Source of the DNA: Mytilus galloprovincialis | Lineage: Eukaryota; Mollusca; Bivalvia; Mytilida; Mytilidae | Direction of reading: 5' to 3' | DNA length: 64,000 bases | NCBI RefSeq assembly: GCF_965363235.1 | Contig: NC_134840.1 | Location: 59,700,793-59,764,792 of the forward strand | Part shown: in pieces, positions 2,693-36,115 of the stretch | Numbering within the stretch: the stretch's first letter is position 1 | How the letters are laid out: every line of letters starts with the position of its first letter | The notes under the pieces: model-generated | Databases searched by the model: none | Told to the model about the DNA's origin: nothing | Seen by the model: the letters and a program-made list of their open reading frames with translations, nothing else | Translations under genes and position numbers: made by a program

Positions 2693-2697
2693 AAGGT

Positions 2698-7545: not shown

Positions 7546-7714
7546 CTAGTGACGCCCAGATACAAAAGATAAAATAGACAATGATCAGAGATATTTATTT
7601 ATTCAAAATCCCGCTTCCAAACATGAGAATATTCTAGTTATTAAATGCGGACGAAGGAACACACGCGCTGACTATTAAATACAATGATTCCTTGACACCA
7701 TCCAGTAAGCAGAG

Positions 7715-7946
7715 AAGTAAAAAGTCAAGGAGGGGCGAAAGATACCAGAGGGACAGTCAAACTCATAGATCGAAAAGAAACTGACAACGCCATGGATAAA
7801 AACAAAAAATACAAACAGACAAATAATAGTACACAAGACGCAACCTAGAAAACTAAAGACTAAGCAACACGAACCTCAACAAAATTTGGGGGTGATCTCA
7901 GCAGCTCCGGAAGGTTAAGCAAATTCTGCTCCACATGTGGCACCCG
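7715..7946 (-). mobile_element. Penelope-like tail insertion (block A)
   Basis: A 232-bp minus-sense tail copy (TGGAGCAG, GGTTCGTGTTG, GAGTTTGACTGTCCCTCTGG) present in A and in B (30880-31111). It is absent from the matching site in block C at about 21451, where AAGCAGAG runs straight into TATTATACGAA. This dates the insertion between the C split and the A/B duplication. Confidence 0.8.
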
Positions 7947-9144: not shown

Positions 9145-9360
9145 TAGTGCATTGCTTTTCTACCTCAGGAATAGATTACCTTAGCTGTATTTGGCAAAAC
9201 TTTTAGGAATTTTTGGTCTTCAATGTTCTTCAACTTTGTACTTTATTTGACCTTTTATAACATTTTTGATTCGAGCGTAACTGGTGAGTCTTTTGTAGAC
9301 GAAACGCGCGTCTGGCGTAAATATTAAATTGTATTCCCTGTATCTATGATGAGTTTATTT
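9145..9360 (+). repeat. Short dispersed repeat with hammerhead-like core (block A)
   Basis: Contains CTGGTGA, GTC-loop-GAC, GAAACGC and GCGTA in the order of a hammerhead core, with one core base changed (CTGATGA to CTGGTGA). Upstream is the family body with GATTACCTTAGCTGTATTTG and CTTCAACTTTGTACTTTAT. The block B orthologue is at about 32655-32875. Confidence 0.8.
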
Positions 9361-9540
9361 GAACTAGCCCTGACCTAAACTGATTTACCCGAATATTCCT
9401 GTGTAGTATTTTGACGAGATGTTTTTTTTAGTATGCTTATTTTAAATTATACACCATGTGTGTATTAATATTCCATGTTTTTGAAAGCCGTTACTTCTAT
9501 TTAAATGTTACAGAAGCTTTCAAAGACGGTTATTTGTCAA

Positions 9541-9656
9541 AATTGGTTAGATGACACACGAAACATTTTGATTGGTTAGATGACACACGAAACATTTTGA
9601 TTGGTTAGATGACACACGAAACATTTTGATTGGTTAGATGACACACGAAACATTTT
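9541..9656 (+). repeat. 29-bp minisatellite, four units
   Basis: ATTGGTTAGATGACACACGA plus AACATTTTG is repeated four times in tandem. Block B has a single unit at about 33061, so the array expanded in A (or contracted in B) after the duplication. Confidence 0.95.
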
Positions 9657-9884
9657 GGTAACATGGTAATACATTTTAATATATTTTCGGTATCTTGTTC
9701 TTCTAATTTAGATAAACCTGATATACACCCACCTAAGTGTGTCACTTAGACAAGAATCCATTAGATTGACAAAAAATATGTCCGAAGTGAAAGAGGGTCT
9801 TCAAGAATACTGTGAACCTTTTAACTCGCGTAATGGTATTTAGCATATGATGATTCTAAAAATTCTTAAGAATTTCTGCATAGT

Positions 9885-11523
9885 TTAATAAAATTGAGAA
9901 TGGAAATGGGGAATGTGCCAAAGAGACAACAACCCGACCATAGAAAAAAACAACAGAAGGTCACCAACAGGTCTTCAATGTAGCGAGAAATTCCCGCACC
10001 CGGAGGCGTCCTTCAACTGGCCCCTAAACAAATATATACTAGTTCAGTGATAATGAACGCCATACCAATTTCCATATTGTACACAAGAAACTAAAATTAA
10101 AATAATACAAGACTAACAAAGGCCAGAGGCTCCTAACTTGGGACAGGCGCAAAAATGCGGCGGGGTTAAACATGTTTGTGAGATCTCAACCCTCCACCTT
10201 TACCTCTAGCCAATGTAGAAAAGTAAACGCATAACAATACGCACATTAAAATTCAGTTCAAGAGAAGTCCGAGTCTGATGTCAGAAGATGTAACCAAAGA
10301 AAATAAACAAAATGACAATAATACATAAATAACAACAGACTACTAGCAGTTAACTGACATGCCAGCTCCAGACTTCAATTAAACTGACTGAAAGATTATG
10401 ATTTCATCATATGAACATCAGGCACAATCCTTCCCGTTAGGGGTTTAGTATCATACCATCATAACATTATGAGAAGAACATAACCCGTGTCATGCCAACA
10501 ACTGGTTTTTGAATAAATGTGTTTAGTTCCGACAGAGACATATAAATACATACATGTCTCTGGTTCCGATGCAAAGACCCTATAAGTGAATCAATATTAA
10601 CGCCAAAATATGCAATCTTTAATGACCTGTCAACAGTATCGTAACTATATCCCTTCTTAATAAGTCTATTCAAAGGTTTTGTTAGTTTTTGAGGTGAATA
10701 CTGCCACCTTTGTGATTTATAAAGAATATTTCCATAAAAAATTGGAAGTGAAATACCTGAACGTATAAGAAGTCTGGATGTTGAGCTATATTTACGAATG
10801 ATGTCCTTATACCGATGATAAAATTTAGTAAATGTTTTGACTAGTTTGTGATATCGAAAACCCTGGTGTAATAATTTTTCAGTAATACATAAATTTTTCT
10901 CGTTAAAATCTAAAACATTGTTACATACACGAGCGAATCGTACAAGTTGAGATATATAAACACCGTAAGATGGTGACAAGGGAACGTCACCATCTAAAAA
11001 TGGATAATTAACGATAGGAAATGAAAAATCATCTCTTTTATCATAAAATTTAGTATTCAGCTTTCCGTTAGTGATATATATATCAATATCGAGGAAAGGG
11101 CAGTGGTCATTGTTAGTATTAGCTTTATTTAAAGTAAGTTCAACAGGATAAATTTCTTTAATATACATACTGAAGTCGTCATTATTGAGAGCCAAAATAT
11201 CATCCAAATATCTAAAAGTATTATTGAATTTGTTTATCAGATGTTGTTTCGATGGGTCTTTGCTTATTTTTGTCATAAATTGTAACTCATAGCAATACAA
11301 AAACAGGTCCGCAATAAGTGGTGCACATTGAGTCCCCATTGGAATTCCGATAATCTGATGATATACGGAATCTCCAAAGCGAACAAAAATGTTATCTAGT
11401 AAAAATTCAAGGGCATATATAGTATCAAAGCATGTCCAATTGACATAGTTTTTTTGTTTATTGCTACTAAAAATGACCTAAAAGAGTTTGAACATATATA
11501 TTCACATTCTGACTTTCTGATTC
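9885..11523 (-). mobile_element. 5'-truncated Penelope-like retroelement (block A only)
   Basis: Block B lacks this segment: its sequence at about 33322 runs from CTGCATAATTT directly into AAACATGTATGTGCC. In minus sense the insert holds the C-terminal two thirds of a reverse transcriptase (to 10467) and then a long 3' tail ending near 9885 in ACATTCCCCATTTCCATTCT. The 5' part is missing. A tail-only copy of the same element sits in block B at about 32150-32497. No clear target duplication was seen. Confidence 0.85.
10467..11339 (-). CDS. Reverse transcriptase fragment, Penelope-like type
   Basis: An open frame of 290 codons from a methionine inside the RT motif MGTQCAPLIADLF. The same frame continues upstream to about 11520 (LEFLLDNIFVRFGD, then GIPMGTQ). 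The catalytic box reads YLDD (in FRYLDDILALNN), followed by CPFLDIDIYIT, the conserved KRDDFSFPIVNYPFLDGD and YGVYISQLVRFARVC. It ends in TRVMFFS. No N-terminal RT motifs or GIY-YIG endonuclease are present, so this is a dead 5'-truncated copy. The YGVYISQL block is typical of a large family of invertebrate RTs that resemble Penelope-like elements in the MG and FLD motifs. The lineage name is tentative. The shown ATG is not a natural start. Confidence 0.8.
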   Translation of the reverse strand: MGTQCAPLIADLFLYCYELQFMTKISKDPSKQHLINKFNNTFRYLDDILALNNDDFSMYIKEIYPVELTLNKANTNNDHCPFLDIDIYITNGKLNTKFYDKRDDFSFPIVNYPFLDGDVPLSPSYGVYISQLVRFARVCNNVLDFNEKNLCITEKLLHQGFRYHKLVKTFTKFYHRYKDIIRKYSSTSRLLIRSGISLPIFYGNILYKSQRWQYSPQKLTKPLNRLIKKGYSYDTVDRSLKIAYFGVNIDSLIGSLHRNQRHVCIYMSLSELNTFIQKPVVGMTRVMFFS

Positions 11524-11639
11524 ATAAACATGTATGTGCCAGAATCTATGACAATTCTGATGATTCTGAAAATTCTTAAGAACTTCTGGATAGTTTTAAA
11601 CCTTGATCTTTCTCTGTAATAAGTTCTATCAAAACTTTT

Positions 11640-12350
11640 GTTTTTTTCAACTCTGTATATCACTATTTCTATGTGATGTTGAAAAAACGTTGAAAAGCAT
11701 TGATCCACAATGCTTTTCAACAAACAAAAGGTACCATACACTATAAATTTAACTCTTTGGGATACCATGCAGCATATTTGCTTAATTGTAAACAAAAAGG
11801 TGAAACATGCCACACAGAGGAACGAGTGGTCAGTTTGGAAGAGTTTCTTTTTGACAATATATATTTGTTGAATTTAAAAGTAGACTTTTTCAACCAATTT
11901 TCGGCATTCCGTTGGAAACGAACTGTGCGCCTCTCTTTGCCGACCTATTCATATTTTTGTATGGGTCAGAGTTCATTCAGTCACTTTCCAAACTTTGTTG
12001 GTTGGGTTTTCATTGATATGACCTCCAGATAAAAAAAAGACAGGCATGGCCTAATCCTCTGCCTCTTTTTTTTTTAGACTTTTACCTCGAATTTGACATT
12101 AGCCGTTTTCTTTGTGCCAGAATCTATGACAAACGAGACGATTCTAATTTTGAAATGACCAAATCCCCTACCTTAGTAGCAATGCACCCATTTCACTTGC
12201 AATTGGGATATACATTTCCCAACTCATTTGGTATTGAAGAGCTTACAGATGCTACCAAAAACTGTGTAAAACGTCACCAATGTATGCACAAACAGTTAAT
12301 GAACCAGGGTTGTGCCAATGAACGTCTAGTTGTTTTTTCTAAATAAAAAA
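11640..12350 (+). mobile_element. Decayed reverse-transcriptase remnant (block A)
   Basis: Plus-strand fragments resemble the same RT family in order (EEFLFDN, then FGIP-like, APLFADLF, YDKRDDSNF), but the frame is broken in several places. The same remnant is in block B at 33480-34140, so it predates the duplication and was already old then. It has no coding potential today. Confidence 0.7.
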
Positions 12351-14050
12351 AAAACGTTCATCAAAAGATACCAAGACATGGTTGAAAAATATTCCGTGTG
12401 ATCGTTACAAATAGTACATTATTCTTGAAGAATATATTCTAGGTTCTGACGTTGTTTATCATCTTACTTACATGTTATTAGTTGTTGTTTTGTCTTTGCT
12501 TATTGTTAACTGTTGATACATGGGTTTTTGATTTTGCCATTTGATAAGAACATTCCGTTGTAAATTTCCTTGGAGTTCGGTATTTTTGTTATTTTATTTT
12601 TCACAACTGATACCATCTTAATGCTGAGTTCAAACGTTATTCGAATTAAATGTACGTGTGAACAAGGCATGAATATCAAATTGGTAATTGTTATCAAACA
12701 AGGTACAGAGGTAAATAGTTGAATATTGTATAAGCCTAACAAAGGTATTCACTTCTGGAGAAGCTACTCGTATTATTCCTATAGATTATCTCATTTAATT
12801 AACATAAATCTTCTCGATCACAAAAAAAAATAAAAGTTGGGAAACATAAAGTGTAACTACATATCATGATGAACTTTAAAACATAACGATATAGTACCAA
12901 CCACTTTGTGTGTAAGCAAAATAAAACAAATTTTCATCTTTATATATATTAAATTTATGCAAAATTGAAAATAGGATATAGAGTTGGTGACATACCCAAC
13001 ACTATTCCAAGTTCATACAAGCATTAAAAGAACCAATAACATGCACTTTAACAAAAGCAGAAGATATAATAAAGCCATTTATATTGGCCAATTAAATAAG
13101 AAGAAAAAAATGCATTAGTAATCCATCAAATGTCATCCGACACCAATCTGTCTGCCTAAGCATTTATATTTTTATCTTTGTTTTTCATTTGATTTTGTCT
13201 TGCATATTTGCTTTATACTTTAAAATGTATTGCATCAAAGGAAAATATCAAAAGAATTAAAACAAAAACCAACAACAACAACAAACTCATGCTAAGATAT
13301 GTGCAACAATCTTATATTTTGATATTTTACTACATGATGGTGTATGAAATATGCCGATCTATTCTTTGGTCAGTACCATAAACTGTTTCTTTATTTTCAT
13401 ACTCATCGGACGGAACAACGCGACTCGATGCATACAATTTGCGAGCAAAAAAAAAAGGAATGAAAAAAACTTCCCTATCCGTAAAACAATAAACGGTTTT
13501 AGTAACAACACCAGAATACCGGTTCACCTTCCGACCATTGCTATGAAGTCAGCTTATTCATTTATTGCTGTTTTTTCTTACTTCTATCAACGCTTCTAAA
13601 ATTCGTCCCTGAATAAGTCATAACAGTATATTCAAATGTTCACTGTGCATACTAAATGCCATCAATTTCTTTTCACAACAGGAATATGTTTGAAAACTTA
13701 CCAGTTTGGACTTTTGCAAATTTTCGTTTGCCGTGATTGCATGGTTGTCGAACTCCCTTCTTGATTAAATAATGTGTAATTATTCATGAACACATCAACG
13801 AATTCTCTCGCCTACCAAATCGGATAATATTGACATGTTCTTTATCTACATATACATATCATGATATTACGATACAGCATAACAGATGTCTTTATAAATT
13901 AAGGAAAAAAGACGTTTGTAAGAGATAGTATGTAGCCGCAATGTTAGGAAGATTTGTAGAATCGACATTGAGACTGAGCTACACTTGTAGACATAGTTCA
14001 AGTCTCTGTTTCGGCTTTTCATTTTCCCTAATTATTTTGTGTTATAATTG
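12350..14050. other. Non-coding part of block A
   Basis: Apart from short open frames that are not conserved in frame length or start between A and B (for example 13351-13599 against 34997-35281), I see no gene here. It is AT-rich and shared with block B with small differences. Confidence 0.6.
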
Positions 14051-14450
14051 ATTTGCACCCCCTTTTCCCCTAATGTGACCTGCCGAATCAGACTTATCAC
14101 TGGATTTGTACTATCACGAGCACATGAAGGGCGCTACATGTGGAGCAGGATCTGCTTGAATTTCTGGAGCACATGAGATATCCCCATGTCTTGATTGGGT
14201 TCGTGTTGCTGTCTTTAGTTTCCGGAGCACATGAGGTATCCCCATGTCTTGATTGGGTTCGTGTTGCTGTCTTTAGTTTCCGGAGCACATGAGATATCCC
14301 CATGTCTTGATTGGGTTCGTGTTGCTGTTTTTAGTGTTCAATGTAGTGGTTTGTGTACTGTTGTTTGTCTGTTGGTAATTTCTTTAGTCAGTTTATTTTC
14401 GACGTATGAGTTTAAATGTTCCTTTGGTATCTTTCGCCACTCTTTTAGCA
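14050..14450 (+). mobile_element. Penelope-like tail with 58-bp tandem expansion (block A)
   Basis: A plus-sense diverged tail (CACCCCCTTTTCCCC, TGTGGAGCAGGATCTGC, then the GAGTTTAAATGTTCCTTTGG end). Inside, a 58-bp unit starting GGAGCACATGAG is repeated three times (14166, 14224, 14282). The block B orthologue at about 35850-36115 has one unit. Confidence 0.8.
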
Positions 14451-17251: not shown

Positions 17252-20200
17252 ATGCAATTATTCGGGCGGCAGAAAATAATTGTGTATTTATTGGGACTTT
17301 TGTGTGCATGTGTGTATGGATTAAAAATGGACTTTACCAGATGGCCAGGTTATAGTGAGTCGCATTCAATTTCTAGCCTGATCTTTTAGGCACAATGGGT
17401 CGGGTATAGTTTGGTGTGGGTTTTTTTAAAAACATAATTGTATGAAACATTGTTTTTATACAGGTCACTACAAAAAAAAAGTAAATTACTTACTTTCTTA
17501 TACCTATGTGAATGGGAATAGTAATTTAAAAAAAAAATCTTGTTGAACCGAACACATCCGATATATTTTGAAAATTAATTTTTTTTTCTTCTGGTTTAAA
17601 AACAAAAATGGGATTTTCTGTATATTCTTGGTGTATGGACTCATTAATTTTTACTTATTGCATGAAATTCTGTTTGTTCATCAAAATATTATTTCAATAA
17701 CTTCAATGACTTTTTTCTTATTCGTTTCCCTAGTACACCATTATCATATACTAGTATTTGACACTTTCTTAACAACTTTTTGGAATTTTGGATCCTCAAT
17801 GGTCTTCAACTTTTTACTTGTTTGGCTTTATAACTATTTTGATATGAGCGTGATGATGTAGACGAAACGCGCGTCTGACGTACTTAAATATAATCCTGGT
17901 ACTTTTGTTAACTATTCATAACATTTTAACAGTAGTAAGATTCTCACTGCCTCGAGTAAAATTAGTTTCATATTGTATTTTCCTTCTTTTTATGGCTGTC
18001 ATCATAAAATTTTTTCTCACCATGCATTGATTTTTCTTTGTTTCCCTTAAGCATTCTAATGTATGTTCCTCAAGAAAACTCCGTTCGAAAGCAGTACGTT
18101 TGGCATATTTTATTATAACCTACAAACATTTTTTTCATCATAAAAAGGAGATTTTTTTTAAAATATGAACGAGCTTTTATTCTTCACAAAACACAGATTT
18201 ATATAGAAATGTTACCAGCGGAAAGTTAATTGATAGAATAAAAGATAATGTATTTTAGCATGATAAAAAGTAATATTATGACAATAAAGCACATTTTAAC
18301 ACAAGATATCATTTTTCAATTAGAAAATTGGAATAAAAATGGCAAAAGGGGAATAGGTGGACAATTTAATGATGGAAATGGTGGATATCTTAAAGAAATG
18401 ATGGATCCTGGATTTTATCCATCTGGATTTGAAGGATGGAACAATCCCGGCACAGGTTTAGGAATGGGGATGCAAGGTTTAGGAGGTTATCCAAAATTTG
18501 GAAACAACGGATTTAAAAAGGTTTGTTATATTTCATCATTATTTACATGTTCATCCTTAACTAAAAAAATACTATTAGTCAAATAGATAGTACATAAAAC
18601 AGGGGCGAATCCAGGATTTTTTACAGGGGAGAGGGCGAAGTTTTAAAAATTTGGCGAGCGTAGCGAGGCGAAAAATTTTTGGGACCTTTTTTTAGCCTTA
18701 AAAAAACATAAAATAAGTGTAATATGCACTTTTTAAACGGTTACTGACGTGGGGCCTGTATTTTTTTTTCATAGTTGCTGTTAAGTGTTAGGGTAGGACA
18801 TTTTTTATGCTTTATTCTCCCTATTAATTGTCTATCATAAAATGATAGTATGGATTCATAGCTATGTACTGATATATTTGATGTGAGACTTGTCAGTGAA
18901 AAAAAGACCGGGAAAATTCTCGTTTGTTGTATGTTAAGTGAGCATAACCTCGTTAGATTTCTTGTTATAAAAAAGATATACGCCGGGCTATTCAAAGGAA
19001 TTTACAATACGACCGACACGAGTTAAAACAGACGAACACGCAATTTTATTCAAATGTTTGGTTGTTATGTTTCACCAAACAAGATGAAGGGAAGTGAGGG
19101 TTTTTAAATCAACAAAAGGCTATGAATGAGTCTGAAGTAACAACGAATTTATGAACGACGGTCGATAAATGGAGACAGAAAGACCACACCCAGCAGTCAG
19201 GTTGCAGTCTCGTCTTGAGGGGAAAAAAACAATATATCAGTTCGGCGAAACAGCAGAACTGCAAACTCCCCCCCTCCCCCCCAAAAAAAAAAAATATACG
19301 CCCGTTTTTTATTCATCATGTTCATTTAATGCTAAATTATTCTGTTGGAAATTTTCAGTTCTTATAGCAAAAAAGTGGATAGGAGTATTGTTTTCAATAA
19401 AGGTACGGCCAGAATTTTTGTTCAAGGCAGATTTTTTTCACTCATATATCTCATACTTCCCCCTCAAATCAAATGGTCGTACCTTAGACTTCAAATATAT
19501 CTAGAGCTTATACTGAGTGGGGATCATTATTCAGCTACATGTATGTTATTTTAGACCACGTGAAAACTTTCGAGTCAACCGAGTAAGATACAACGAGAGT
19601 TAATTAACTGATGTTCTTTAGAATAGAATGGGGTGTTTGGGGTTAAACATTCTCAATCCTGTGTTGCTTTGAAGGTGCCATGATTGTCAGTCTCAGCGTA
19701 AGCAATGTGTTACTGTATTTTGAATTTCAAAATGACTGAGTGACATTTTTTCGACGCACTCGTCAACTCCAGCATGGCTAAACACATGACTTTGACATGA
19801 TAAGTAAATACCAGCGAAAAATATCTTAATAAGTAAAGATTTGTCGCATAAAAATTAAAGACACGAGAAATGGCAAAGTTCACGAAGTCTAGTCTGATTA
19901 ATCATTTTACAAAAAAAAAGGGGGGGCGGCGTCATCATTTAGGGTTAGTCTGTGGTTTAATTGTTTTTTTTAGATATCAATACTTTTGTCAACTTTCCTT
20001 TCATTAAACGTGAACAGATGTTTTTTTTTATATTCAAAAGACCGCATCTATGCAGAGCATAATTAGTTGGTTTTTTTTCTCTTATTTCTTAATGAAAATC
20101 TATTCCATGTTTTTTTTGCAGTTATCATCTAGATTCAATCTGGGATTACAATTTAAAGCTTGTTCAAAACTTTATGGAATTCTATGAAGTTTAATAAAAA

Positions 20201-21560: not shown

Positions 21561-22089
21561 GCATGATAGATGTTGCTTTTGTATTTACAAATATTAGATT
21601 TGTTGATTAATAATACTGACACATGACATAATTTGTAGAACTGTTAATAGTCTCACGGTAAATAAAGGCAACAGTAGTATACCCGCAGTTCGAAAGTCAT
21701 AAATCTATTGAGAGAAAACAGTTAAAATTAAAACCAAAGGAAACACATCAACAGCATAAACAAGGATATGCCATCTTGTTTTTTATAATTTGATCGTGTG
21801 TTAAAGGAAAACGAAAAACAAAACAAAACATAAAAGGCTGCAAATGATATGTTCAGACCCGATAGAAATTAGTTGAAGGTAGAAACCAGGTTGTGATTTA
21901 ACATCTTGGCCAAGAGTCAAAATAAAATAAAGGGCCATTGTTATGAGGTCACTTGAAAAGACAACGTAAACAAAGTCATACTTTAAAATCAAATGCCAAG
22001 ACATAAAGTTTGTGATAACTACAATTTGTAGAATATAGATTAGGTATACATGAATATTGATATTGTCAGATTTATAAATTCATTGTTTA

Positions 22090-22560
22090 CAAAACTTTTG
22101 AATTTTTGAAATACTAAGGTTTTTCTGCCTCAGGAATTGATTACCTTAGCTGTATTGGTTTTTTTTTGGGGGGGGGGGATTTGGGTCCTCAGTGGTCTTC
22201 AACTTCGTACTTTTTTTTGTCTTAAGCGTCACTGTTGAGTCTTTTGTAGAAGAAATGTGCGTCCGGCGTAAATACAAAATTCAATTACTGGTATCTATAT
22301 TGAGTTTATTTACAGCCACTGGGTCGATGCCACTGCTGGTGGAGTTTTACTTCCCCGAGGGTATCACCAGCTCAGTAGTCAGCACTTCTGTGCTCACATG
22401 AATTATCATTGATATGGTCATATTTATAAATTAACTGTTTAAAAATATTTGGCCTTTTTAACTTTTTTGGTTTCGAGCGTCACTTGTGAATCTTTTGTAG
22501 ACGAAACGCGCGCCTGGTGTCAACTCAAAATTTAATCCTGGTATCTTTGATGTGTTTATC
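22090..22560 (+). repeat. Head-to-tail dimer of the hammerhead-like dispersed repeat
   Basis: Two motif copies lie in the same orientation at about 22226-22272 and 22480-22522 (each with the TCTTTTGTAGA loop, then GAAA...). Between them the first unit's end (GGTATCTATATTGAG) runs directly into the family start CCACTGGGTCGATGCCACTG. The same family start-to-end order is seen in the single full copy at 51000-51352. The second unit has an internal deletion. Both cores have substitutions (CTGTTGA and CTTGTGA). Confidence 0.8.
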
Positions 22561-22689
22561 TAAGCAATGACTGCATGTTTCGATATATGCGGGAAAGAAA
22601 TTTATTAACACATTATGTCCTTTGTCCCTTTAGCACCTCATTTGGAAATGCTTTACAATCAAAATATTATATTTTGGGACATGGAAATC

Positions 22690-23255: not shown

Positions 23256-23394
23256 GGAACTTCGCACTTTTATGGCAATGTTAAACATAACACTAACGTG
23301 ACAACATTACATGACAGGACTACAAATAAATGGAAGAACATTTAGAACAGAAATACACAAATAAACAAAACAATAGAACATTTCGACATGGTAA

Positions 23395-23610
23395 TAGTTA
23401 TCAGGTACCAGGCTTATAATTTAATACGCCAGACGCGTATGTCGTTTACATAAGATTCATAAGTGACGCTCAGGTATCTTTGAAGAAAGCCAAACAAAGT
23501 TGATGACCAAAAATTAAGTACCAAGAAGTAATAAATGAAGAAAGCCAAACAAAGTTGATGACCAAAAATTCCACAAAGTTGTGGCAAATAAAGCTAAGGT
23601 TATCTGTCTA
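23395..23610 (-). repeat. Short dispersed repeat, hammerhead-like family (decayed)
   Basis: A minus-sense copy with AGGTACCTGATAACT-type ends and GACGCGTATGTCG in place of the standard core, which has several substitutions. A 37-bp piece containing AAGAAAGCCAAACAAAGTTG is duplicated in tandem at about 23482 and 23538. Confidence 0.7.
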
Positions 23611-24336
23611 ATATAAGAAAATTCTTAGTATTTAGACACATTTATACTTTTGCAAACAGCAAACTTATAAAAATGAACGTATAATAGATATACATGTCAA
23701 TACCAAAGACCGTACCTCACCACAGAATAAAAACGAACACGTAAAACAACCTAGGTCAGCACACAAAAACAGTACAAAAGAACCACGCATTGTCTTTCAT
23801 TCGTCTTTCTATTGAACACCATAATAAGTGTAACACAGAAAAAACAAGAAAATAAGTGTAATCATTCGAAAACCAAACACAAACATTACGGATTTTAGAA
23901 TTAAGAGAGGGGACTTCAACAAAAAAAGTGCTCAAAACACAAAATTCAAATTTGTGGTAAAAAAGCATTAGAGTACTAAATGCTTGATTTTGTGCACACA
24001 TTCTATACTTCAAGTACTGAGTAAAGTGTAATAACCGTAGGTCTAGTAAATTGCTGCTTCTGATCCTGAGTAGGATAAATAGTATACTTGTGTAAGTCTG
24101 ACACAGAAAAATACGAAAATAAGTGCTATTATAATAGAACAAAAAAAATATGTTGTTTTGAAAAATAGGGGAGGACCAACAAAAACTGTTTAGTCCCAAG
24201 TACCTGTGGAAATGATTGCATCGGCTTACACCAAGATCCATTAACTTTTTAAATCCTGTACATATAATGTGCATGGCCTGGCAGAATTAATCCTTTTGTT
24301 TTGTTTTCTTTTATATTCAACCTACATGTACTTGCA

Positions 24337-24450
24337 CTTCTAATACATGGCAGGTCTATTTATACACTATTTATACACTGACAGGCATCCACTTCTAATA
24401 CATGACAGGTCTATTTGTACACTATTTATACACTGATAGGCATCCACTTG
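24337..24450. repeat. Two satellite units at the C/B junction
   Basis: Two 55-bp units of the array found at 1-1320. On the left, block C sequence homologous to A 8200-8455 ends in ACTTGCA; on the right, block B starts. The array therefore sits on the duplication breakpoint. Confidence 0.95.
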
Positions 24451-25630
24451 CATCAGAAATATTTGTGTACTTCTTCTTTTGAAAATTATTCCTAAAAATA
24501 TGCTGTATAGGGTTGGTTATTTTTGTCGTTATTTGCTGTCTTATTGAAATATACTCATTTTTGTTCGAAAACGAAATGCAGTAATTTGCTTGGTTAATTA
24601 TTGAGTCAAAGTACGATAAATCGTACTCAATATTTTGATGGAAGAACGATTATCTGCCTTATTTAACATGGTTTGTATTCTACTGTGTCCTAATATTATG
24701 ATGGGAATGGTCTGGAAGATGTGGACCAAAAGGACTTTTTTTTAAAATTTATTCATACAAACTGGCAAATATAAACGTAAAACCTTTCAAAATAGTTTTA
24801 AGTGAAGGTCATAAACCAACAAAGATATGTAGACGATGATTTCTGATTCTCTGTTTGAAGTTTCTATGGTTTATTTTTTCTTCATCCAACGCTTCTTTAA
24901 TTCGTTACTAAAAAAAAGTAATAGGATTATATTCAAATGTTCCCTGCGTATTTGTCATTAACTTACTGGAATATGTTGAAAACTTACCATTTGGACTTTT
25001 GGAAATTTTCATTTGCCGACTCCCTTCTTGATTAAATAATGTGTCCACTTATCACAAACACATCAACGAAACATCTCGTCTTCCAAATCGGAAGATATTG
25101 ACATGTCGATTTTACATATACATGTATGCCTATCAGGATGATACGATACAGCATAAACATAAGACTTTATTTATTTAAAAAGGCGACATTTGTAAAGCGT
25201 CAGTTGGTGGCCGCAATTTCAGGGTGAGTTAAAAAACTGAGTAACACTTGTAGACAAATCTCTGTTTCGGCTTTCAATTTGTTTTCAGTGCTATTTGACG
25301 AACGTTAAGTTTTTTACTTTTTGTCTTTTTCCAAGATTAAAAACAAAACTATATATTTGGCCTATTTTATCATTGTTCATTTGCCTTTGAGTAGTATGAT
25401 TTATTGATCAGCAAGTGTTTATGCAAAGAAATATTTCGAATTCAGTTGATATAGACAATGCATCAATTGTATTTGATCTGTTTATTCATGCTTTGTATTA
25501 TATGTCTCAAGGCGTCGTCTTACTTAAGTTTCATTTTTGTAACTTATCAACCAGCAATAAGTGCTAAAGCTTGTTTCAATATTGCAGATACTGACAAATA
25601 CAAGTTAACTGTATTTTATCTAGAATTACT

Positions 25631-25801
25631 ATAATTGGTTATCAAAGGAACCAGGATTATAATCTTATACGCCAGACTTGCGTTTCGTTTTCATTAGACT
25701 CATCAGTGACTGTCATTTCAAAATAGTTATAAAGCAAAATAAGTACAACGTAGAAGAGCATTAAGGACACAACACCCCAAAAAAGTTGTGCCAAATACGG
25801 C
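25631..25801 (-). repeat. Short dispersed repeat with hammerhead-like core (block B copy)
   Basis: Orthologue of 2525-2692, with the same altered stem II and the same neighbouring tail. Confidence 0.8.
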
Positions 25802-25807
25802 TAAGGT

Positions 25808-26094
25808 AAAACAGGGACGAAAGATACCAAAGGGACAGTCAAACTCATAAATCGAAAATAAACTGACAACGCCATGGCTAAAAATGAAAAAGACAAACAA
25901 TAGTACACATGACCCAACATAGAAAACTAAAGAATAAACAACACGAACCCCACCAAAAACTAGGGGTGATCTCAGGTGCTCCGGACGGGTAAGCAGATCC
26001 TGCTCCACATGTGGCACCCGTCGTGTTGCTTATGTGATAACAAATCCAGTAAATAGTTTAATTCGATAGGTCACATTCATGAAAGAGAAGGGGA
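25808..26094 (-). mobile_element. Penelope-like element tail (block B)
   Basis: Orthologue of 2698-2990 in block B, with the same truncation point and flanks. The insertion therefore predates the A/B duplication. Confidence 0.8.
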
Positions 26095-26448
26095 TTGTAA
26101 TTTTTAGTGTAATTCGGCCAGTTTCCACTCATTTCATTTCATAGTATCATCAAGTAACTACTTTTGGTCTACATAATCGTAATATTTAGTACATCGCTGA
26201 CCAACAAAGAACGATTGACCTTCATTTCAATTTCTTGTTTCACTGATTCACATAAAGTTTCGACATTGATTTTTTTTTAAGGAAGTCCGAATTTATAAGA
26301 TCAGTTGTTAATTGAAGAGAGCCATTGTTGGTTTGATACATTTAATTTGACTTTTATATTTTTACACATATACGTATCATTCGCCCAGATCAGAATTGTT
26401 TTGTTTGTTTGTCCAAATTTGTAAATGTATGATACAAATGTGACAATC

Positions 26449-26720
26449 AAAAGTAGAGGGGCATTATGTTTTCTGGTCTGTGCTTCCGTCCGTTCGTCCG
26501 TTCGTCCGTCCGTGCGTCCGTTCGCTTCAGGTTAAAGTTTTTGGTCAAGGTAGTTTTTGATGAAGTTAAAGTTACATCAACTTGAAACTTAGTACACATG
26601 TTCCCTATGGTATGATCTTTCTAATTGTAATTCCAAATTAAAGTTTTGACCCCAATTTCGAATTCACTGTCCACTGAACATAAAAAATGATAGTGCGAGT
26701 GGGGCATCCGTGTACTATGA
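26449..26720. mobile_element. MITE-like repeat with GTCCGTTCGTCC motif (block B)
   Basis: Orthologue of 3420-3699. Here the sequence passes from GACAATCAAAA directly to GTAGAGGGGCATTATG, so the left outer end and 94 bp of flank present in A are missing. Confidence 0.65.
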
Positions 26721-27069
26721 ACACATTCTTGTTAGTTATGTTTTGCTTAAAACAAAGACAAATTTGCAGGTTCACATTTTTATGTTTGTTATCCATTCAG
26801 TACTGGTATATATTAACACAGTAGGAGGGATATATTCACTCAATATAACCAACATAAATGTTAATAGTAACGATAGTGTTGAGAAGTATAGTAATTTGCG
26901 TTGACAACATTTCCGATTGATATCTTTGATAACTACTTTTTTAAACTAAGAACAAGAGCAAAGATAATTGTCAAAATGCAATTGTTTAAATAAAAATAAA
27001 GAACTGTCCGTTTTAAAAGGTTTCCCTCCATATATGACCAAGTCATTGTATTAAATGTTGTAGAGACAT

Positions 27070-27293
27070 GAGGCCCCTCATGGGGGGTCCTAGTAATCAC
27101 ATAATCACCATTTTTTTGCCAATATAATCACATAATCATTAAATATTTGCTTATCTTTAGTAATCAAATAATCATAAACTAAAAATACAGTCCTAGGTAA
27201 TCAAATAATCATGGAATATTTGGCTTAATAATCAAATAATCATTAAAAAAACGGCCAAGTAATCACATAATCAAAAACCCCATGAGGGCCCTC
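27070..27293. mobile_element. 224-bp MITE with target duplication (block B only)
   Basis: Bounded by AGACAT on both sides (27064-27069 and 27294-27299). Block A has the empty site with one AGACAT (4039-4044). The ends are GAGGCCCCTCATGGGG and CCCCATGAGGGCCCTC, inverted with one shift. The inside has six copies of AATCAMATAATCA at irregular spacing, all in the same direction. There is no coding frame. It lies 240 bp upstream of the TATA box of gene B. Confidence 0.92.
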
Positions 27294-27535
27294 AGACATT
27301 TATGTTGTAATTAAATACGTAAGGTGTCAATGTCACAAGAAACAATTCGTAGGGTTTATTACGTTTTACGTTTCCGACCACCATATACGTAACCACAATT
27401 TCCCGTACCTTTATAGTTTAAGACTACTAGAACAAAAGACCATATTTAATTGCTGCATCCTTATAATTTGTTTTCTGACAACCGAATTATAAATGATGGG
27501 TTCTAATGCATTAATACATCGGCTGTGATTGAACG

Positions 27536-27545
27536 TATATAAAAG
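27536..27545 (+). promoter_or_regulatory. TATA box of glycine-rich gene B
   Basis: TATATAAAAG, identical in context to gene A. The untranslated exon runs to the donor at 27612 and the next exon starts at 27832 with the ATG at 27844. Confidence 0.78.
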
Positions 27546-27843
27546 AAGAAAGATTCTACCGGACAAATCACAAGTGAATCCAGACCCCTCTTGAATTGCC
27601 AAATATCTTAAGGTAAATAATTTCCTATGTTTTCAATATATATGATAAAACATTGATTTCATCTAGTTTTTCTTCTTTTATTGCTTGAAAACATTTTTCA
27701 AATCTTTTGTCAGGCTATAGATTTATTTCAATAATCTGCATTTTTTAAAATTTAGAAGTGCATTTTTTTTAAAGTTATGCTTAAACCGAATATATGACCA
27801 TCCTATATAGCTATTCATTTTCGAATTTTAGATACAGACGAAA

Positions 27844-30206
27844 ATGTTGAGTTCGGTTGTAGTCGCTACCCTCTTTGCCTGTGTCTCTGCTACATTCTAC
27901 AAAGGTAAATTAAAAACTACATGGTTTGTCAAAATCATAATTTCATGAAAAATATTGATTTGTGGGTTAAAATATTTCATATTTGAAGTACATACAGAAA
28001 TGATCAGAAAATGGCAATCAGTTGTTATATTTTTGTTTTGTTAACATCTGAGACAATTTTAACAGTAAAAAGAGGTTGTGCCTATTTCTCCTACCTCTGT
28101 GTCAATCACATTTAAATGCAAAAACTTGTCGAAACATGATGAAAATTTGAATGTTAAAAAGTTTATAAAAGGAGTAGGTTCAGTAAGACCCCTTTTTGGC
28201 CCCAAAATATAGCAGTATTACAAAATTGTTAAAATGTTAACTTTTAGTTATTTATTGGAAAGTAGAATGCCTCTGCTACATAAATATGGGCTGGTTTTTT
28301 TACAATACAATGTTCATATATCGGGTACAAGCATCATTAAGTCATGCTAAATAACTGAATTCTTCAAAATGTTAGCTTTTTAGTTAAATTTCCGTCTTAA
28401 ATGAAAGTGGCCGCATTTGTGTTCATTCTTAATATTGAAATGCAAGTTGCATTTGATGATAATACATAACATATATAAAGGTTAAGGATGAACACGGATG
28501 CGGCCACTTTCACTTTTGACAAAAACCATCCGAAAAGTGACAATTTTTGGCATATTTGATAGATTTTTCATATCTAGTTAAAATCTTTCACATAAACTAA
28601 TTGAATCAACTGAAATAAACACTTAAGTGTTTAAAAAGTGTCTAAAATCTCTCGTCAGATGAAATTGAAATTGAAAATCGGCCGTTACCGGACCTACTCC
28701 ATTACTTATTTTTTACTAAATCCTTTTTTCGCATTTCTAAAAAGAAAAAAATATCATCAGCGCTACATATTGCTATGTAAGACAATCATGAAACAACTTT
28801 GAATAATACAAATTCACATATTTTCTTTATAAGTTGTACTTCATAGTTTTGACAGGACTTTATATGATTTTGATAGTTAAACACTCCAATGTGCCAACAT
28901 CTATTACAGTTGAAAGTAATAACTTGTGTTTGAACCCCTGTAATGAATGATACTGTGATTTTTTTTTGGTAGAAAAAGAAAGAACTTTTTTAAATGATGT
29001 GAACAAAATTCTGGGAAAATTTAACATACCAACCTTCATGCTTCATGCACACCGGATGTTCATATGATTTGTGTTTGAGGTTTCGATGCTTTCACCTACC
29101 CTCTCCCTTAACGAATGTCCTGTTTCTACATTTTTTCGTGCAACCTAGTTCTCCATAATATAACGCAAATTAGTTTTAAATATATGTAAATATACACACA
29201 TTAAAACATTTATAACGATTACTTAAAATTGTAGGAAATTTTGGACCTCATTCTGGATATCAGAGATTTGGAGGATATGGACCAATGAACTCCTACTTTG
29301 GCATGATAGGATATAAAAATCAGTATGACATGTTCAATGGTGGATATCTAAATGGCGGCGCTGGTGGCTTCCAGAACCGTGGGTTAATGGGTGGATATCT
29401 GAAAGTTGGAATCGGAGGATATTTCAAAGGTGGAATGGGAGGACAATTTAATGGCGGAAATGGTGGATATCTTAAAGGAATGATGGATTCTGGGGCGTAT
29501 CCATCTGAATTTGAAGGATGGAACAATCATGGCGCTGATTTAGGAATGGGGATTCAAGATTTCGGAAGTTATCCAATATTTCGAAACAACGGATTTGGAA
29601 ATATGGGCGGTGCATATGGTATTAAAGGATTTAAGAAAGGTTTGTTATTGTTAAAAATTTACATGTTTTAAATTCTTGAAAAAACATTAGACAAATAGAC
29701 TGTACATGATATTAATTAGTTATTTTTATCTAGCAAGTAGAACGAAACATAGATATACTAAATTCCGTCGGCCTCTTTATCATCCTTTAGGGTAAGTAAA
29801 TGGTTTAATTGTTTTTAAGACATCAATACATCCTTTTATGAAACTTGAACAGAAGCCTTTTCATCATTAAAACACCGTTCTAGCATAATGAGAATTTTTA
29901 GGAATTATTCTTATTTTCTGATGATATTTTCTAGTTATTTTTTTCCTGTTATCATCTAGATACAATATGGAGTTAAAGTTTTTTTTTTAACTTAATAGAA
30001 TTATATGATGTTTTGAAAGATACTTTTTGTGAATTTGAATTATCATTACATCTGAATAAAAATTTTAAATTATATTTTTTATCGTTTTTGAGTAATTTTT
30101 AAAGTAATTGACTATGATGAAAACAGTGTATCAAATTCTTAAAACAGTTATATAGAATTCATCTTATTGTTTATTCTTCTTTTTTGAAATTGTAGGAAGC
30201 TATTAG
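27844..30206 (+). CDS. Glycine/tyrosine-rich secreted matrix-type protein, copy B (158 aa)
   Basis: Coding exons 27844-27904, 29235-29639 and 30196-30206, joined by two phase-1 GT-AG introns. A 5' untranslated exon ends at 27612. The signal peptide MLSSVVVATLFACVSA is followed by TFYKGNFGPHSGYQRFGGYG. The body is built of GGYLNGG, GGFQNRG, GGYLKVG, GGYFKGG, GGQFNGG and GGYLKGM blocks, then a less repetitive stretch (DSGAYPSEFEGW, GADLGMGIQ, GNMGGAYG) and the end GFKKGSY. It has no cysteine after the signal peptide. Composition, secretion signal and clustering of paralogues fit shell-matrix glycine-rich proteins of the shematrin style, or another mantle- or byssus-secreted structural protein. 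This is inference from composition, not a family match. It is the intact sister of copy A. Confidence 0.85.
28168..28703. mobile_element. MITE with AGGAGTAGGT inverted ends, in intron of gene B
   Basis: Orthologue of 4999-5550, with the same inverted ends (right end CCTACTCC) and the same internal GTGGCCGC palindrome. Confidence 0.8.
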
Positions 30207-30295
30207 GTGAAACACTAATAAGGCGGAAGACACAACGAGGCTGAAGACAACAGAAGATTCTAGAAAAAACTCATATTTATGTTTATTTTTTTTAT

Positions 30296-30301
30296 AATAA
30301 A
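30296..30301 (+). terminator. Polyadenylation signal of gene B
   Basis: AATAAA, 90 bp after the stop codon. Confidence 0.75.
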
Positions 30302-30879
30302 ATATTTCGATCCCCAAAAATATAATTATAACCTAAGCCTCATGTTCTGCAGATCCGCGTGAAAGACTCAATGTTACTATTTTACTTTAAATAAAGGCAA
30401 CAGTAGTATACCGCTGTTCAAAAATCATAAAACGAACTATAATATAACAATGGCCATATTCCTGACTTGGTACAGGACATTTTTAAAGGAACAAATGGTG
30501 GGTTGAACCTGGTTTTGTGGCATGCCAAACCTCCCTCTTTTATGGCCATGTGAAATATAACTTTAAAATGACAACACAACATTACAGGACTACAATATAA
30601 ATAAATAGGAGAACACAATTGACAAAGAAACACACGAATAATAGCTAACAAAATACAACAAGTTAACAATTTTAATACGCCAGAAGTGCATTTTGTCCAC
30701 ACAAGACTTACTAGTGACGCCCAGATACAAAAGATAAAATAGACAATGATCAGAGATATTTATTTATTCAAAATTCCGCTTCCAAACATGAGAATATTCT
30801 AGTTATTAAGTGCGGACGAAGGAACACACGCGCTGACTATTAAATACAATGATTCCTTGACACCATCCAGTAAGCAGAG

Positions 30880-31111
30880 AAGTAAAAAGTCAAGGAGGGG
30901 CGAAAGATACCAGAGGGACAGTCAAACTCATAGATCGAAAAGAAACTGACAACGCCATGGATAAAAACAAAAAATACAAACAGACAAATAATAGTACACA
31001 AGACTCAACCTAGAAAACTAAAGACTAAGCAACACGAACCCCAACAAAATTTGGGGGTGATCTCAGCAGCTCCGGAAGGTTAAGCAAATTCTGCTCCACA
31101 TGTGGCACCCG
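30880..31111 (-). mobile_element. Penelope-like tail insertion (block B)
   Basis: Orthologue of 7715-7946. Block C has the empty site near 21451. Confidence 0.8.
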
Positions 31112-32149
31112 AATTATACGAAGGTTGAAAGGGTTCATATATATTATCAGTGGTCGCTGTTGATAAACAAACAATTGCTAGCAAACAAGTAAGACATGCT
31201 ATTGTTTGTAGATTTGTGTAAGTTTAAGTACAGAAATAACACCAAAAAAAATTTTAAAAAAAGAACTTATTCTCTCCCAAATATTTGGAGTTCAAAACTT
31301 TTGCTTGAAACACAAAATATTGGAGAACGATAGTCGTATACTTGCGTAAGAAGAACTTATCTCTGTCTGTAAGTCTAATACAGAAATGTATGAAAATAAT
31401 TATAAATTGGTGAAACTGACAGAACAAAAGTATATATAGATTTTGGAAAAAATTGGGGCAGGCCAACAAAAACTGCCCTGTCTCAAATACCTGTCGGAAT
31501 TATTACATCGGCTTACATTAAGATCTATTAAATGTAGAAAATCGTTTAGATAAATCATTTGTATGGCATGTCAGAATTAATCTTCTTGTTTTGTTTTCTT
31601 TTACATGCAACCCACATTAACTTGCATTCAGATAACGACAGATGAAAGAAACTGATCAATAATTTTGGTTGGTAAAGACAACTAAATACATTGCAGTCTG
31701 ATTTTTCATTATACACCTTTTTATCTGGTATATGTTCATTTTGTTGGTTACATGTATATATGTACATGTCTTGGTTGTCTGATTCTCCTATCTAACGTTA
31801 TATTGACGGTGAAAAAAATAGCTTTTGTTATATTCATTGATAAGATTTTCATCGAATTGCCCATATTTAATTATAATGGATATAATGTATAGTGTATTAT
31901 TGTACACAGATTTGTTGATAAAGTATATAACTTTTTCAAAGTTTATCTCAGAGGTGTTTACGATTGCTGTAATAATGGTAGTTCATAACCATTAGGCTCT
32001 TACTTGTCAGACCACAGTTCATCCGCAGTGCATCATTGTAGACTTTTTATTAAATATAAACTTTTTAGCTTTGTGAACTTTTCTATGGTGTATATTAACA
32101 ACAAACTACAAAACAAGAGCTAAGAGAATATAACTTTAGATTCAAATTA

Positions 32150-32497
32150 CAATAAAAATGAGAATGGAAATGGGGAATGTGCCAAAGAGACAACAACCCG
32201 ACCATAGAAAAAAACAACAGCAGAAGGTCACCAACAGGTCTTCAATGTAGCGAGAAATTCCCGCACCCGGAGGCGTCCTTCAACTGGCCCCTAAACAAAT
32301 ATGTACTAGTTCAGTGATAATGAACGCCATACTAATTTCCAAATTGTACACAAGAAACTAAAATTGAAATTATACAAGACTAACAAAGGCCAAAGGCTCC
32401 TGTCAGGCTGACTTGGGACAGGCGCAAAAATGCGGCGGGGTTAAACATGTTTGTGAGATCTCAACCCTCCCCCTATACCTCTAGCCAATGTAGAAAA
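32150..32497 (-). mobile_element. Tail-only copy of the block A retroelement (block B only)
   Basis: About 347 bp from AATAAAAATGAGAATGG to CCAATGTAGAAAAG, matching the 3' tail at 9885-10225. Block A runs uninterrupted here (TTCAAATTACAAGACAACTTC at about 8975). It is an independent insertion of the same family, cut much shorter at its 5' end. Confidence 0.85.
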
Positions 32498-32654
32498 GAC
32501 AACTTCATTTCCGTACGGGGCATAACTAGAATAGAAATGTTATGTTTCAACAAAAAGTTGATCAAGTGTGAAACTAAACAAAGAATGAACTTCCAATTGA
32601 TAAACAAACAATACGATTAAAATGGTTTTAACATATCAATATATTTAAACCGTT

Positions 32655-32875
32655 GCTTAGTGCATTGCTTTTCTACCTCAGGAATAGATTACCTTAGCTG
32701 TATTTGGCAAAATGTTTAGGAATTTTTGGTCCTTAATGCTCTTCAACTTTGTACTTTATTTGACCTTTTATAACATTTTTGATTCGAGCGTCACTGGTAA
32801 GTCTTTTGTAGACGAAACGCGCGTCTGGCATAAATATTAAATTGTATTCCTGGTATCTATGATGAGTTTATTTGA
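32655..32875 (+). repeat. Short dispersed repeat with hammerhead-like core (block B copy)
   Basis: Orthologue of 9145-9360, with CTGGTAA in place of CTGGTGA. Confidence 0.8.
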
Positions 32876-33479
32876 ACTAGCCCTGGCCTAAACTGATTAA
32901 CCCGAATATTCCTGTGTAGTATTTTGACGAGATGTTTTTTTTTAGTATGCTTATTTTAAATTATACACCATGTGTGTACATGTATTAATATTCCATGTTT
33001 TTGAAAGCCGTTACTTCTATTTAAATGTTACAGAAGCTTTCAAAGACGGTTATCTGTCAAAATTGGTTACATGACACACGAAACATTTTGATTTTGGTAA
33101 CATGGTAATACATTTTAATATATTTTCGGTATCTTGTTCTTCTTATTTAGATAAACATGATATACACCCACCTAAGTGTGTCACTTAGACAAGAATCCAT
33201 TAGATTGACAAAGTCCGAAGTGAAAGAGGGTCTTTAAGAATACTGTGAACCTTTTAACTCGCGTAGTGGTATTAAGCATATGATGACTCTAAAAATTCTC
33301 AAGAATTTCTGCATAATTTAAACATGTATGTGCCAGAATCTATGACAATTCTGATTCTGAAAATTCTTAAGAACTTCTGGATAGTTTTAAACCTTGATCT
33401 TTCTCTGTAATAAGTTCTATCAAAACTTTTGTTTTTTTCAACTCTGTATATCACTATTTCTATGTGATATTGAAAAAAC

Positions 33480-34140
33480 GTTGAAAGAAATTAATCCACA
33501 ATGCTTTTCAACAAACAAAAGGTAGCATACACTATAAATTTAACTCTTTGGGATACCATGCAGCATATTTGCTTAATAGAGAAAAAAAAAGGTAAAACAT
33601 GCCACACAGAGGAACGAGTGATCAGTTTGGTAGAGTTTCTTTTTGACAATGTATTTGTTGAATTTAAAAGTAGACTTTTTCAACCAATTTTCGGCATTCC
33701 GTTGGAAACGAGCTGTGCGCCTCTCTTTGCCGACCTATTCATATTTTTGTATGGGTCAGAGTTCATTCAGTCACTTTCCAAACTTTGTTGATCGGGTTTT
33801 CATTGATATGACCTCCAGATAAAAAAAAGACAGACATGGCCTAATCCTCTGCCTCTTTTTTTAGACTTTTACCTCGAATTTGACATCAGCCGTTTTCTTT
33901 GTGCCAGAATCTATGACAAACGAGACGATTCTAATTTTGAAATGACCAAATCCCCTACCTTAGTAGCAATGCACCCATTTCACTTGCAATTGGGATATAC
34001 ATTTCCCAACTCATTTGGTATTGAAGAGCTTACAGATGCTACCAAAACTGTGTAACACGTCACCAATGTATGCACAAACAGTTAATGAACCAGGGTTGTG
34101 CCAATGAACGTCTAGTTGTTTTTTCCTAAAAAAAAATCGT
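33480..34140 (+). mobile_element. Decayed reverse-transcriptase remnant (block B)
   Basis: Orthologue of 11640-12350. The recognisable pieces FLFDNVFVEF, FGIP and CAPLFADLF show that it belongs to the same RT family as 46744-47517. It is broken in several places. Confidence 0.72.
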
Positions 34141-35849
34141 TCATCAAAAGATACCAAGACATGGTTGAAAAATATTCCGTGTGATCGTAACACATAGTAC
34201 ATTATTCTTGAAGAATATAGTCTAGGTACTGACGTTGTTTATCATCTTACTTACATGTTATTAGTTGTTGTTTTGTCTTTGCTTATTGTTAACTGTTGAT
34301 ACATGGACTTTTGATTTTGATAAGAACATTCCGTTGTAAATTTCTTTGGAGTTCGGTATTTTTGTTATTTTATTTTTCACAACTGATACCATCTTAATGC
34401 TGAGTTCAAACGTTATTCGAATTAAATGTACGTGTGGACGAGGCATGAATATCAAATTGGTAACTGTTATCTAACTAGGTACAGAGGTAAATAGTTGAAT
34501 ATTGTATAAGCCTAACAAATGTATTCACTTCTGGAGAAGCTACTCGTATTATTCCTATAAATTATCTCATTTTTAGTTAACATAAATCTTCTCGATCACA
34601 AAAAAAAATAAAAGTTGGGAAACATAAAGTGTAACTACATATCATGATGAACTTTAAAACATGCCGATATAGTACCAACCACTTTGTGTGTAAGCAAAAT
34701 AAAACAAATTTTCATCTTTATATATATTAAATTTATGCAAAATTGAAAATAGGATATAGAGTTGGTGACATACCCAACACTATTCCAAGTTCATACAAGC
34801 ATTAAAAGAACCAATAACAGGCACTTTAACAAAAGCAGAGGATATAATAAAGCCATTTATATTGGCCAATTAAGTAAAAAGAAAAAAATGCATTAGTAAT
34901 CCATCAAATGTCATCCGAAGTAAACAAGACACCAATCTGTCTGGCTAAGCATTTATATTTTTATCTTTTATTTTTATTTGATTTTGTCTTGCATATTTGC
35001 TTTATACTTTAAAATGTATTGCATCAAAGGAAAATATCAAAAGAATTAAAACAAAAACCAACAACAACAACAAACTCATGCTAAGATATGTGCAACAATC
35101 TTATCTTTTGATATTTTATTACATGATGGTGTATGAAATATGCCAATCTATTTTTTTGGCCAGTACCATAAACTGTTTCTTTATTTTCATACTCATAGGA
35201 CGGAATAACGCGACTCGATGCATACAATTTGCGAGCAAAAAAAAAGGAATGAAAAAAACTGCCCTATCCGTAAAACAATAAGCGGTTTTAGTAACAACAC
35301 CAGAATACCGGTTCACCTTCAGACCATTGCTACGAAGTCAGCTTATTCATTTATTGCCGTTTTTTCCTACTTCTATCAACGCTTCTAAAATTCGTCCCTG
35401 AATAAGTCATAACAGTATATTCAAATGTTCACTGTGCATACTAAATGCCATCAATTTCTTTTCACAACAGGAATATGTTTGAAAACTTACCAGTTTGAAC
35501 TTTTGCAAATTTTCGTTTGCCGTAATTGCATGGTGGTCGAACTCCCTTTATGATTAAATAATGTGTAATTATTCATGAACACATCAACGAATTCTCTCGC
35601 CTACCAAATCGGATAATATTGACATGTTCTTTATCTACATATACATATCATGATATTACGATACAGCATAACAGATGTCTTTATAAATTAAGGAAAAAAG
35701 ACGTTTGTTAAGAGATAGTATGTAGCCGCAATGTTAGGAAGATTTGTAGAATCGACATTGAGACTGAGCTACACTTGTAGACATAGTTCAAGTCTCTGTT
35801 TCGGCTTTTCATTTTCCCTAATTATTTTGTGTAATCATTGATTTGCACC

Positions 35850-36115
35850 CCCTTTTCCCCTAATGTGACCTGCTGAATCAGACTTATCACTGGATTTGTA
35901 CTATCACGAGCACATGACGGGTGCCATATGTGGAGCAGGATTTGCTTGAATGTCCGGAGCACATGAGATATCCCCATGTCTTGATTGGGTTCGTGTTGCT
36001 GTTTTCAATGTAGTGGTTTGTGTACTGTTGTTTGTCTGTTGGTAATTTCTTTATTCAGTTTATTTTCGACGTATGAGTTTAAATGTTCCTTTGGTATCTT
36101 TCGCCACTTTTTTAG
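35850..36115 (+). mobile_element. Penelope-like tail (block B), single 58-bp unit
   Basis: Orthologue of 14050-14450 without the tandem expansion. Confidence 0.75.

Follow-up and report, generated by a model that had tools for sequence, protein, structure and literature searches.

A decayed head-to-tail array of a retrozyme-like hammerhead repeat in Mytilus galloprovincialis, and a fixed copy end beside a second conserved RNA domain

The 64-kb window of Mytilus galloprovincialis DNA analysed here (the whole stretch, to which coordinates refer unless another sequence is named) carries a short repeat that BLAST with the copy near 51000 aligned in 17 pieces at 15 places, the query included. These places comprise 13 arrays and two remote copies (7473-7574 and 30638-30739), in agreement with the earlier note, which had counted at least 12 copies. 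Positions within the unit are given as u numbers, u1 being the first base 3' of the ribozyme cut, and the copies with their features are collected in Table 1. The segment 22090-22560, previously described as a head-to-tail dimer, sits in one array of 515 bp at 22048-22562, which begins at u133, crosses the unit end unbroken and reaches u196 of the following unit; from there it skips to u297 and stops at u48. Thus, the head-to-tail join is real, whereas the supposed dimer spans about 1.8 units, about 100 bp having been lost from the second. Both hammerheads of this array are probably inactive, since core bases are changed. A piece of the unit end had also been noticed ahead of the unit start in the 51000 copy, and it is genuine, that copy starting at u27.

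Table 1. Copies of the repeat in the window and their ribozymes and second RNA domains
Position	Strand	Feature	Details
2522-2699	-	copy, duplicate at 25632-25809	hammerhead core kept, 8/13 pairs
7473-7574	-	remote copy	hammerhead 7512-7555 decayed
9154-9360	+	family B copy, duplicate at 32667-32873	hammerhead core A6 changed
17772-17916	+	family A copy, 5' truncated	no hammerhead by gapless scan
22048-22562	+	retrozyme array, family B, about 1.8 units head to tail	515 bp; u133 to u196, then u297 to u48
22226-22269	+	hammerhead of first unit, 22048-22562 array	A6 changed (CTGTTGA), one stem II pair lost; predicted cleavage 22263/22264
22317-22402	+	second conserved RNA domain, 22048-22562 array	corresponds to family A u47-u131
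22477-22520	+	hammerhead of second unit, 22048-22562 array	core CTTGTGA, GCC at cleavage site
23393-23708	-	old copy, 72% identity	hammerhead 23426-23469 decayed
25632-25809	-	duplicate of 2522-2699 copy	
30638-30739	-	remote copy in duplicated part of window	hammerhead 30677-30720 decayed
32667-32873	+	duplicate of 9154-9360 copy	
46168-46231	+	short copy	hammerhead 46179-46222, core intact, 12/13 pairs
50986-51355	+	best window copy, family A2, slightly more than 1 unit	u27 round to u41
51006-51090	+	second conserved RNA domain of best copy	
51277-51320	+	intact type I hammerhead of best copy	RF00163 33.0 bits; 13/13 model pairs; predicted cleavage 51314/51315
56241-56500	-	old copy, 76% identity	alignment stops at u21; no hammerhead by gapless scan
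61597-61773	-	family B copy	hammerhead 61638-61681, core intact, 12/13 pairs
62030-62153	-	copy	hammerhead 62065-62108, single change vs 51277 copy, in stem I
63534-63641	+	copy	hammerhead 63563-63606, G12 changed

Part of the window is directly duplicated: six blocks that align 1187-14216 with 24335-36005 total about 11 kb, are 95-98% identical and have an offset of 21.8-23.5 kb. This is a segmental duplication, or else the assembly has retained both haplotypes. A satellite with a 55-bp unit lies at 1-1326 and 24335-24449. Inverted copies of 484-824 bp with about 87% identity are found at 44459-45978 and 47839-48651, the first side being itself repeated, and the flanks of the short retrozyme copy at 46168-46231 form an inverted repeat. 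Matches to MIR161 on both strands at 5223-5373 and 28383-28528 (best E 1.9e-5; 40.8 bits, the cut-off being 90) probably represent an inverted-repeat element and no microRNA.

The Rfam scan of the window at the gathering threshold returned no match. On 51277-51320 the type I hammerhead model RF00163 scored 33.0 bits (cut-off 34; E 2.4e-4 over 64 kb), so that the covariance-model check proposed in the earlier note gives a match whose best window copy lies 1 bit below the curated cut-off; seven further window copies are matched more weakly (E 0.053 to 4.2), six by RF00163 and one by the type III model (61646-61684). In the genome, 29 of 37 RF00163 matches exceed the cut-off among the matches listed (74 scored of 224,653 first-look candidates), all eight genomic hits that were fetched sit inside the repeat, and RF00163 had no match in any of 14 control genomes. 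The type I hammerhead reading is supported by the covariance model, by the stems of a divergent family and by tandem arrays, and it was largely right apart from the register of stem III. The elements CTGATGA, GTC, loop, GAC, GAAA and CGC are present in the order given. According to the Rfam alignment, stem I is GCGTCA/TGGCGT, stem II is GTC/GAC and stem III is a loopless ACGC/GCGT, with the predicted cut after GTC. Stem III, which had been read as ACGC-loop-GCGT, is therefore placed in the palindrome ACGCGCGT, and a convincing stem I, reported as missing, does exist; it had been overlooked because its 3' strand, the GCGT that comes next, was taken as the partner of ACGC. Within one RNA, ACGCGCGT can form only two pairs with a GCGC tetraloop, or it could pair with a second RNA; a single hairpin cannot accommodate the two innermost pairs of stem III, which are among the 13 of the model. 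Statements cited here and below to PMC numbers refer to the accessible part of each text. Invertebrate hammerheads typically have a two-pair stem with a tetraloop (PMC7229834).

A gapless, fuzzy scan of the window (up to 14 mismatches of 44) located 14 hammerhead segments. All 13 model pairs occur in one of them (51277), three (46179, 61638 and 62065) keep the core residues and 12 of 13 pairs, the segment at 2559 and its duplicate at 25669 keep the core and 8 pairs, and the other eight, including both of the 22048-22562 array, have core changes. The residues taken as essential are those of hammerheads in general. Most window copies thus show core or stem changes, much as the earlier note had reported core substitutions in most copies. 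By energy folding, the minimum-energy structure of 51265-51335 differs from the hammerhead, and the segment folds no better than shuffled sequences do (z 0.77); the fold of a whole unit has a z of -1.25.

Example units measure 354 bp in family A, 365 bp in family B and 351 bp in family C, and four such units share 79-93% pairwise identity. The divergent family C forms its stems (stem I GCATCA/TGGTGC, stem II GAC/GTC, stem III ATGC/GCAT) by partly other bases; three of four examples have all 13 pairs and one has two breaks. Family C is the clearest evidence for the fold by paired changes. RF00163 listed no family C motif at E up to 1. The genome holds 5,950 family C matches at up to 1 mismatch, and 44 family C cores stand in a row at 350-bp spacing at C1:433306-448389.

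Among 91 distinct sequences of the hammerhead, pairing holds in 91.7% of cells (90.4% after shuffling), and 15 cells are changed on both sides against 4.2, none of 500 shuffles being as high in either measure; structures slid by 1-3 columns reach up to 12 double-changed cells. The numbers of covarying pairs (5) and of pair types (18) in these 91 sequences were not significant (79 and 50 of 500 shuffles), and nothing was significant on the 13 distinct window sequences. Many of the 91 sequences were picked by the exact core pattern, which leaves changes in stems II and III under-represented. The covariation check on the stems thus came out mixed: double changes exceed shuffles and family C stems are compensated, whereas the slid controls come near and neither the covarying-pair count nor the window set is significant. 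Taken by itself, the short string CTGATGAGTC does not exceed the chance level (37 matches at up to 2 mismatches, 33.9 expected). A chance likeness to the hammerhead is ruled out by the covariance model and family C, which CTGATGAGTC by itself would not show.

Outside the ribozyme, the most conserved block is u41-u120, with 60 of 80 columns identical across the four example units, u61-80 being less conserved (11 of 20 columns). A structure for a second RNA domain (u47-u131) was built by combining a single-sequence fold with inspection by eye, and its pairing was counted afterwards; RNAalifold found two helices only. On 65 distinct sequences, 94.6% of cells pair against 91.7% after shuffling, and double-changed cells, which count sequences and not events, number 45 against 14.2, with none of 500 shuffles as high. 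Slid structures reach at most 46% pairing and at most 13 double-changed cells. Covarying pairs (5) and pair types in this domain were not significant (251 and 149 of 500 shuffles), and its outer two helices contain no double change.

At the scale of the genome (1.385 Gb searched), the 30-letter ribozyme core pattern has 14,566 matches, its reversed control having none. Tandem arrays elsewhere in the genome, which the earlier note had suggested looking for, are abundant, with 4,103 tandem pairs of intact cores at 338-368 bp spacing and none in the control.

Copy ends were read from the window and from 72 loci, 73 sources in all after the removal of 14 loci that overlapped; of the 113 copies taken, 5 at locus edges were dropped (n=108). 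The 3' ends are concentrated, 85 of 108 copies stopping within u38-47 (family A) or u44-52 (family B). The 5' ends are spread across the unit (KS against uniform, p 0.08; n=108): only 3 of 108 fall at u42-60, the start expected of a full-length unit, which is no excess, and 9 of 108 fall within u1-14 or from u350 onward. A length of at least 355 bp is reached by 44 of 108 copies, part of the loci having been picked as dimers. The exact core, by which most loci were selected, lies inside 67 of 108 copies; among the 41 without it, the fixed site is the end point of 24, and the other 17 stop elsewhere. In the window, which was searched with the full element, 11 of the 13 arrays stop at the fixed site, two of these being duplicates of others, and three family C arrays, read by eye, end at about u33, again after TATT. 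Thus, in most copies examined the end is fixed about 33-48 nt 3' of the predicted cut, directly 5' of the second domain, and the start may be anywhere.

Five 24-letter segments lying between u46 and the cut were counted in the genome, with up to 3 mismatches allowed; the numbers rise from 20,377 at u46 through 23,949, 29,254 and 39,874 to 43,871 for the segment across the ribozyme cut (reversed controls 0, 0, 0, 1 and 0). This rise, which is what anchoring of the copies near u41 would predict, places the step there and not at the ribozyme cut, although the slope is approximate, since the segments are unequal in conservation. At the target sites the mean longest match was 5.35 against 5.11 for shuffled partners, with 7.1% against 2.6% at 8 bp or more and none of 85 at 10 bp or more. 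Clear target-site duplications, which in animal retrozymes exceed 4 bp when present, did not stand out among these 85 copies, and target-primed insertion is therefore unproven.

Taken together, the repeat is a decayed copy of an element of the animal retrozyme kind (probability about 0.93), a non-autonomous, non-coding retrotransposon, and most likely the mussel retrozyme. Animal non-LTR retrozymes are low in GC and non-coding and consist of tandem units of about 150-450 bp that carry a hammerhead; here the GC content of four units is 0.367-0.384, no ORF of at least 40 aa occurs in the one array examined, and the units measure 351-365 bp. As unit size, composition, layout and ribozyme agree with the retrozymes of Mytilus galloprovincialis (PMC7229834) by description and not letter by letter, we count the repeat as already known. 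The element is a published kind, its likeness to mussel retrozymes being judged by description, and the finding is therefore mainly a confirmation. The fixed internal end and the second RNA domain were not met in print in our literature searches. Those searches, which covered the main text of mostly open-access papers, gave no paper title on the end pattern of animal retrozymes. In the literature text search the core string gave no mussel paper, its four matches being by title one on hammerhead design and three on other subjects, and the accessible text of PMC10294476 contains neither ribozyme nor retrozyme. The exact core pattern had no match in viral contigs or in the collection of other genome contigs.

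Other origins of the repeat account for part of these data. An ordinary SINE whose end resembles a hammerhead by accident would share the fixed 3' end and the 5' truncation, both SINE- or LINE-like, and a stretch near u50 presumably resembles a pol III B box. However, the RF00163 match with its compensated stems, the seamless multi-unit arrays and the scarcity of 5' ends at u42-60 make a SINE scarcely credible, and with no tRNA in 3 loci and no Rfam gathering match in the window, no head derived from a pol III RNA was found. Satellite DNA amplified at the DNA level, in which the ribozyme is a passenger and RNA has no role in the spread, would suit those arrays that are long and regular, such as the family C row described above. 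It is unlikely, since many copies are dispersed and 5' truncated with a common 3' end, which exchange between DNA copies does not predict, and circles have been reported from mussel tissue (PMC7229834). The repeat might also be a fragment of an autonomous Penelope-like element, as the genome contains GIY-YIG loci with a reverse transcriptase, one of which carries a hammerhead-like string. The head-to-tail units and the lack of any RT or GIY-YIG ORF in the array examined render this highly improbable; moreover, comparison with four GIY-YIG loci gave no significant likeness among the matches listed (best E 0.11).

Penelope-like genes are present in this genome, with at least 147 GIY-YIG matches (150 scored of 1,001 candidates). 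RVT_1 and GIY-YIG occur together in two ORFs, the RVT_1 of one of them (L089) being slightly under the cut-off. No Rfam hammerhead was found at E up to 10 in the GIY-YIG loci compared. The hammerhead-like string mentioned above, at 2893-2931 of one GIY-YIG locus (L087), has a palindromic ACATGT and is present on the opposite strand too; it was not called a ribozyme, as pairing at the foot of its stem II is imperfect.

Returning to the retrozyme reading, mussel repeats are reported to self-cleave and to be transcribed, cut and present as circles in mussel tissue (PMC7229834). Following this literature, the arrays would be transcribed, the hammerheads would cut the RNA to unit lengths and an RNA ligase would close the circles. 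Judging by the copies, a reverse transcriptase would start about 33-48 nt 3' of the cut, beside the conserved folded domain, and would then travel along the template for anything between part of one turn and several turns, so that the inserts left behind are truncated at the 5' end or multimeric. The 22048-22562 array might be an old product of about 1.8 turns whose ribozymes have since decayed. In Anolis, a Penelope-like protein initiates reverse transcription at sites within its RNA, and these sites coincide with the ends of genomic copies (PMC11167929); since the copy ends seen here fit this pattern, an internal start is suggested, and reverse transcription of the mussel repeat probably begins at a fixed internal site.

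The template should be continuous across the cut, that is, a circle or an uncut multimer, because copies cross the cut. Uncut linear multimers, with a hammerhead dispensable for insertion, would be in keeping with the Anolis protein, which uses unprocessed RNA and whose in vitro insertion is unaffected by hammerhead mutants (PMC11167929), and with the only partly greater likeness of units within arrays (identity 0.931 within against 0.905 between, one locus, L023, mixing family C and family A units, which lowers its within-array value). On the other hand, in 7 of 13 arrays the units resemble one another more than they do any other array, one array holds two identical units, and linear RNA is a minority on mussel blots (PMC7229834), so we regard linear templates as rather doubtful. 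The likeness of units within arrays lends mild support to a circular template.

LINEs or Penelope-like elements have been named as possible movers of the mussel repeats (PMC7229834). A Penelope-like enzyme is a possible mover here, though we would not wager on it. We tentatively propose that animal retrozymes could be parasites of Penelope-like reverse transcriptases, the enzyme binding u47-u131, starting at the adjacent fixed site and circling variably. If true, this would account for 5'-truncated single copies and tandem arrays alike. The copy-end pattern touches a question that the accessible part of PMC7229834 leaves open, namely the identity of the reverse transcriptase that moves animal retrozymes and the RNA form on which it acts; an internal start at a fixed site, next to a conserved RNA domain, lends itself to a concrete binding and primer-extension test.

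To conclude, the repeat resembles the Mytilus galloprovincialis retrozyme described by Cervera and de la Pena in 2020 (PMC7229834) in its type I hammerhead, its tandem repeats (about 350-390 bp there), its low GC content, its thousands of copies and its more than one ribozyme family. About 5000 ribozymes are given there against 14,566 core matches here, the method and the assembly being different, and two ribozyme families there stand against A, B and C here; the fixed 3' end and the second RNA domain seen here are not mentioned in the accessible part of that paper. Hammerhead-bearing Penelope-like elements (PMC11167929, PMC7761336) share the internal start of reverse transcription 3' of the cut, the tandem copies and a very short stem III, but they encode a reverse transcriptase and a GIY-YIG endonuclease, whereas our repeat encodes nothing of at least 40 aa in the array examined. 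The LTR retrozymes of plants (PMC4918200, as described in PMC7761336 and PMC7229834) likewise have RNA circles made by hammerheads as mobile intermediates; they differ in their type III hammerheads, their LTRs and their 4-bp target duplications.
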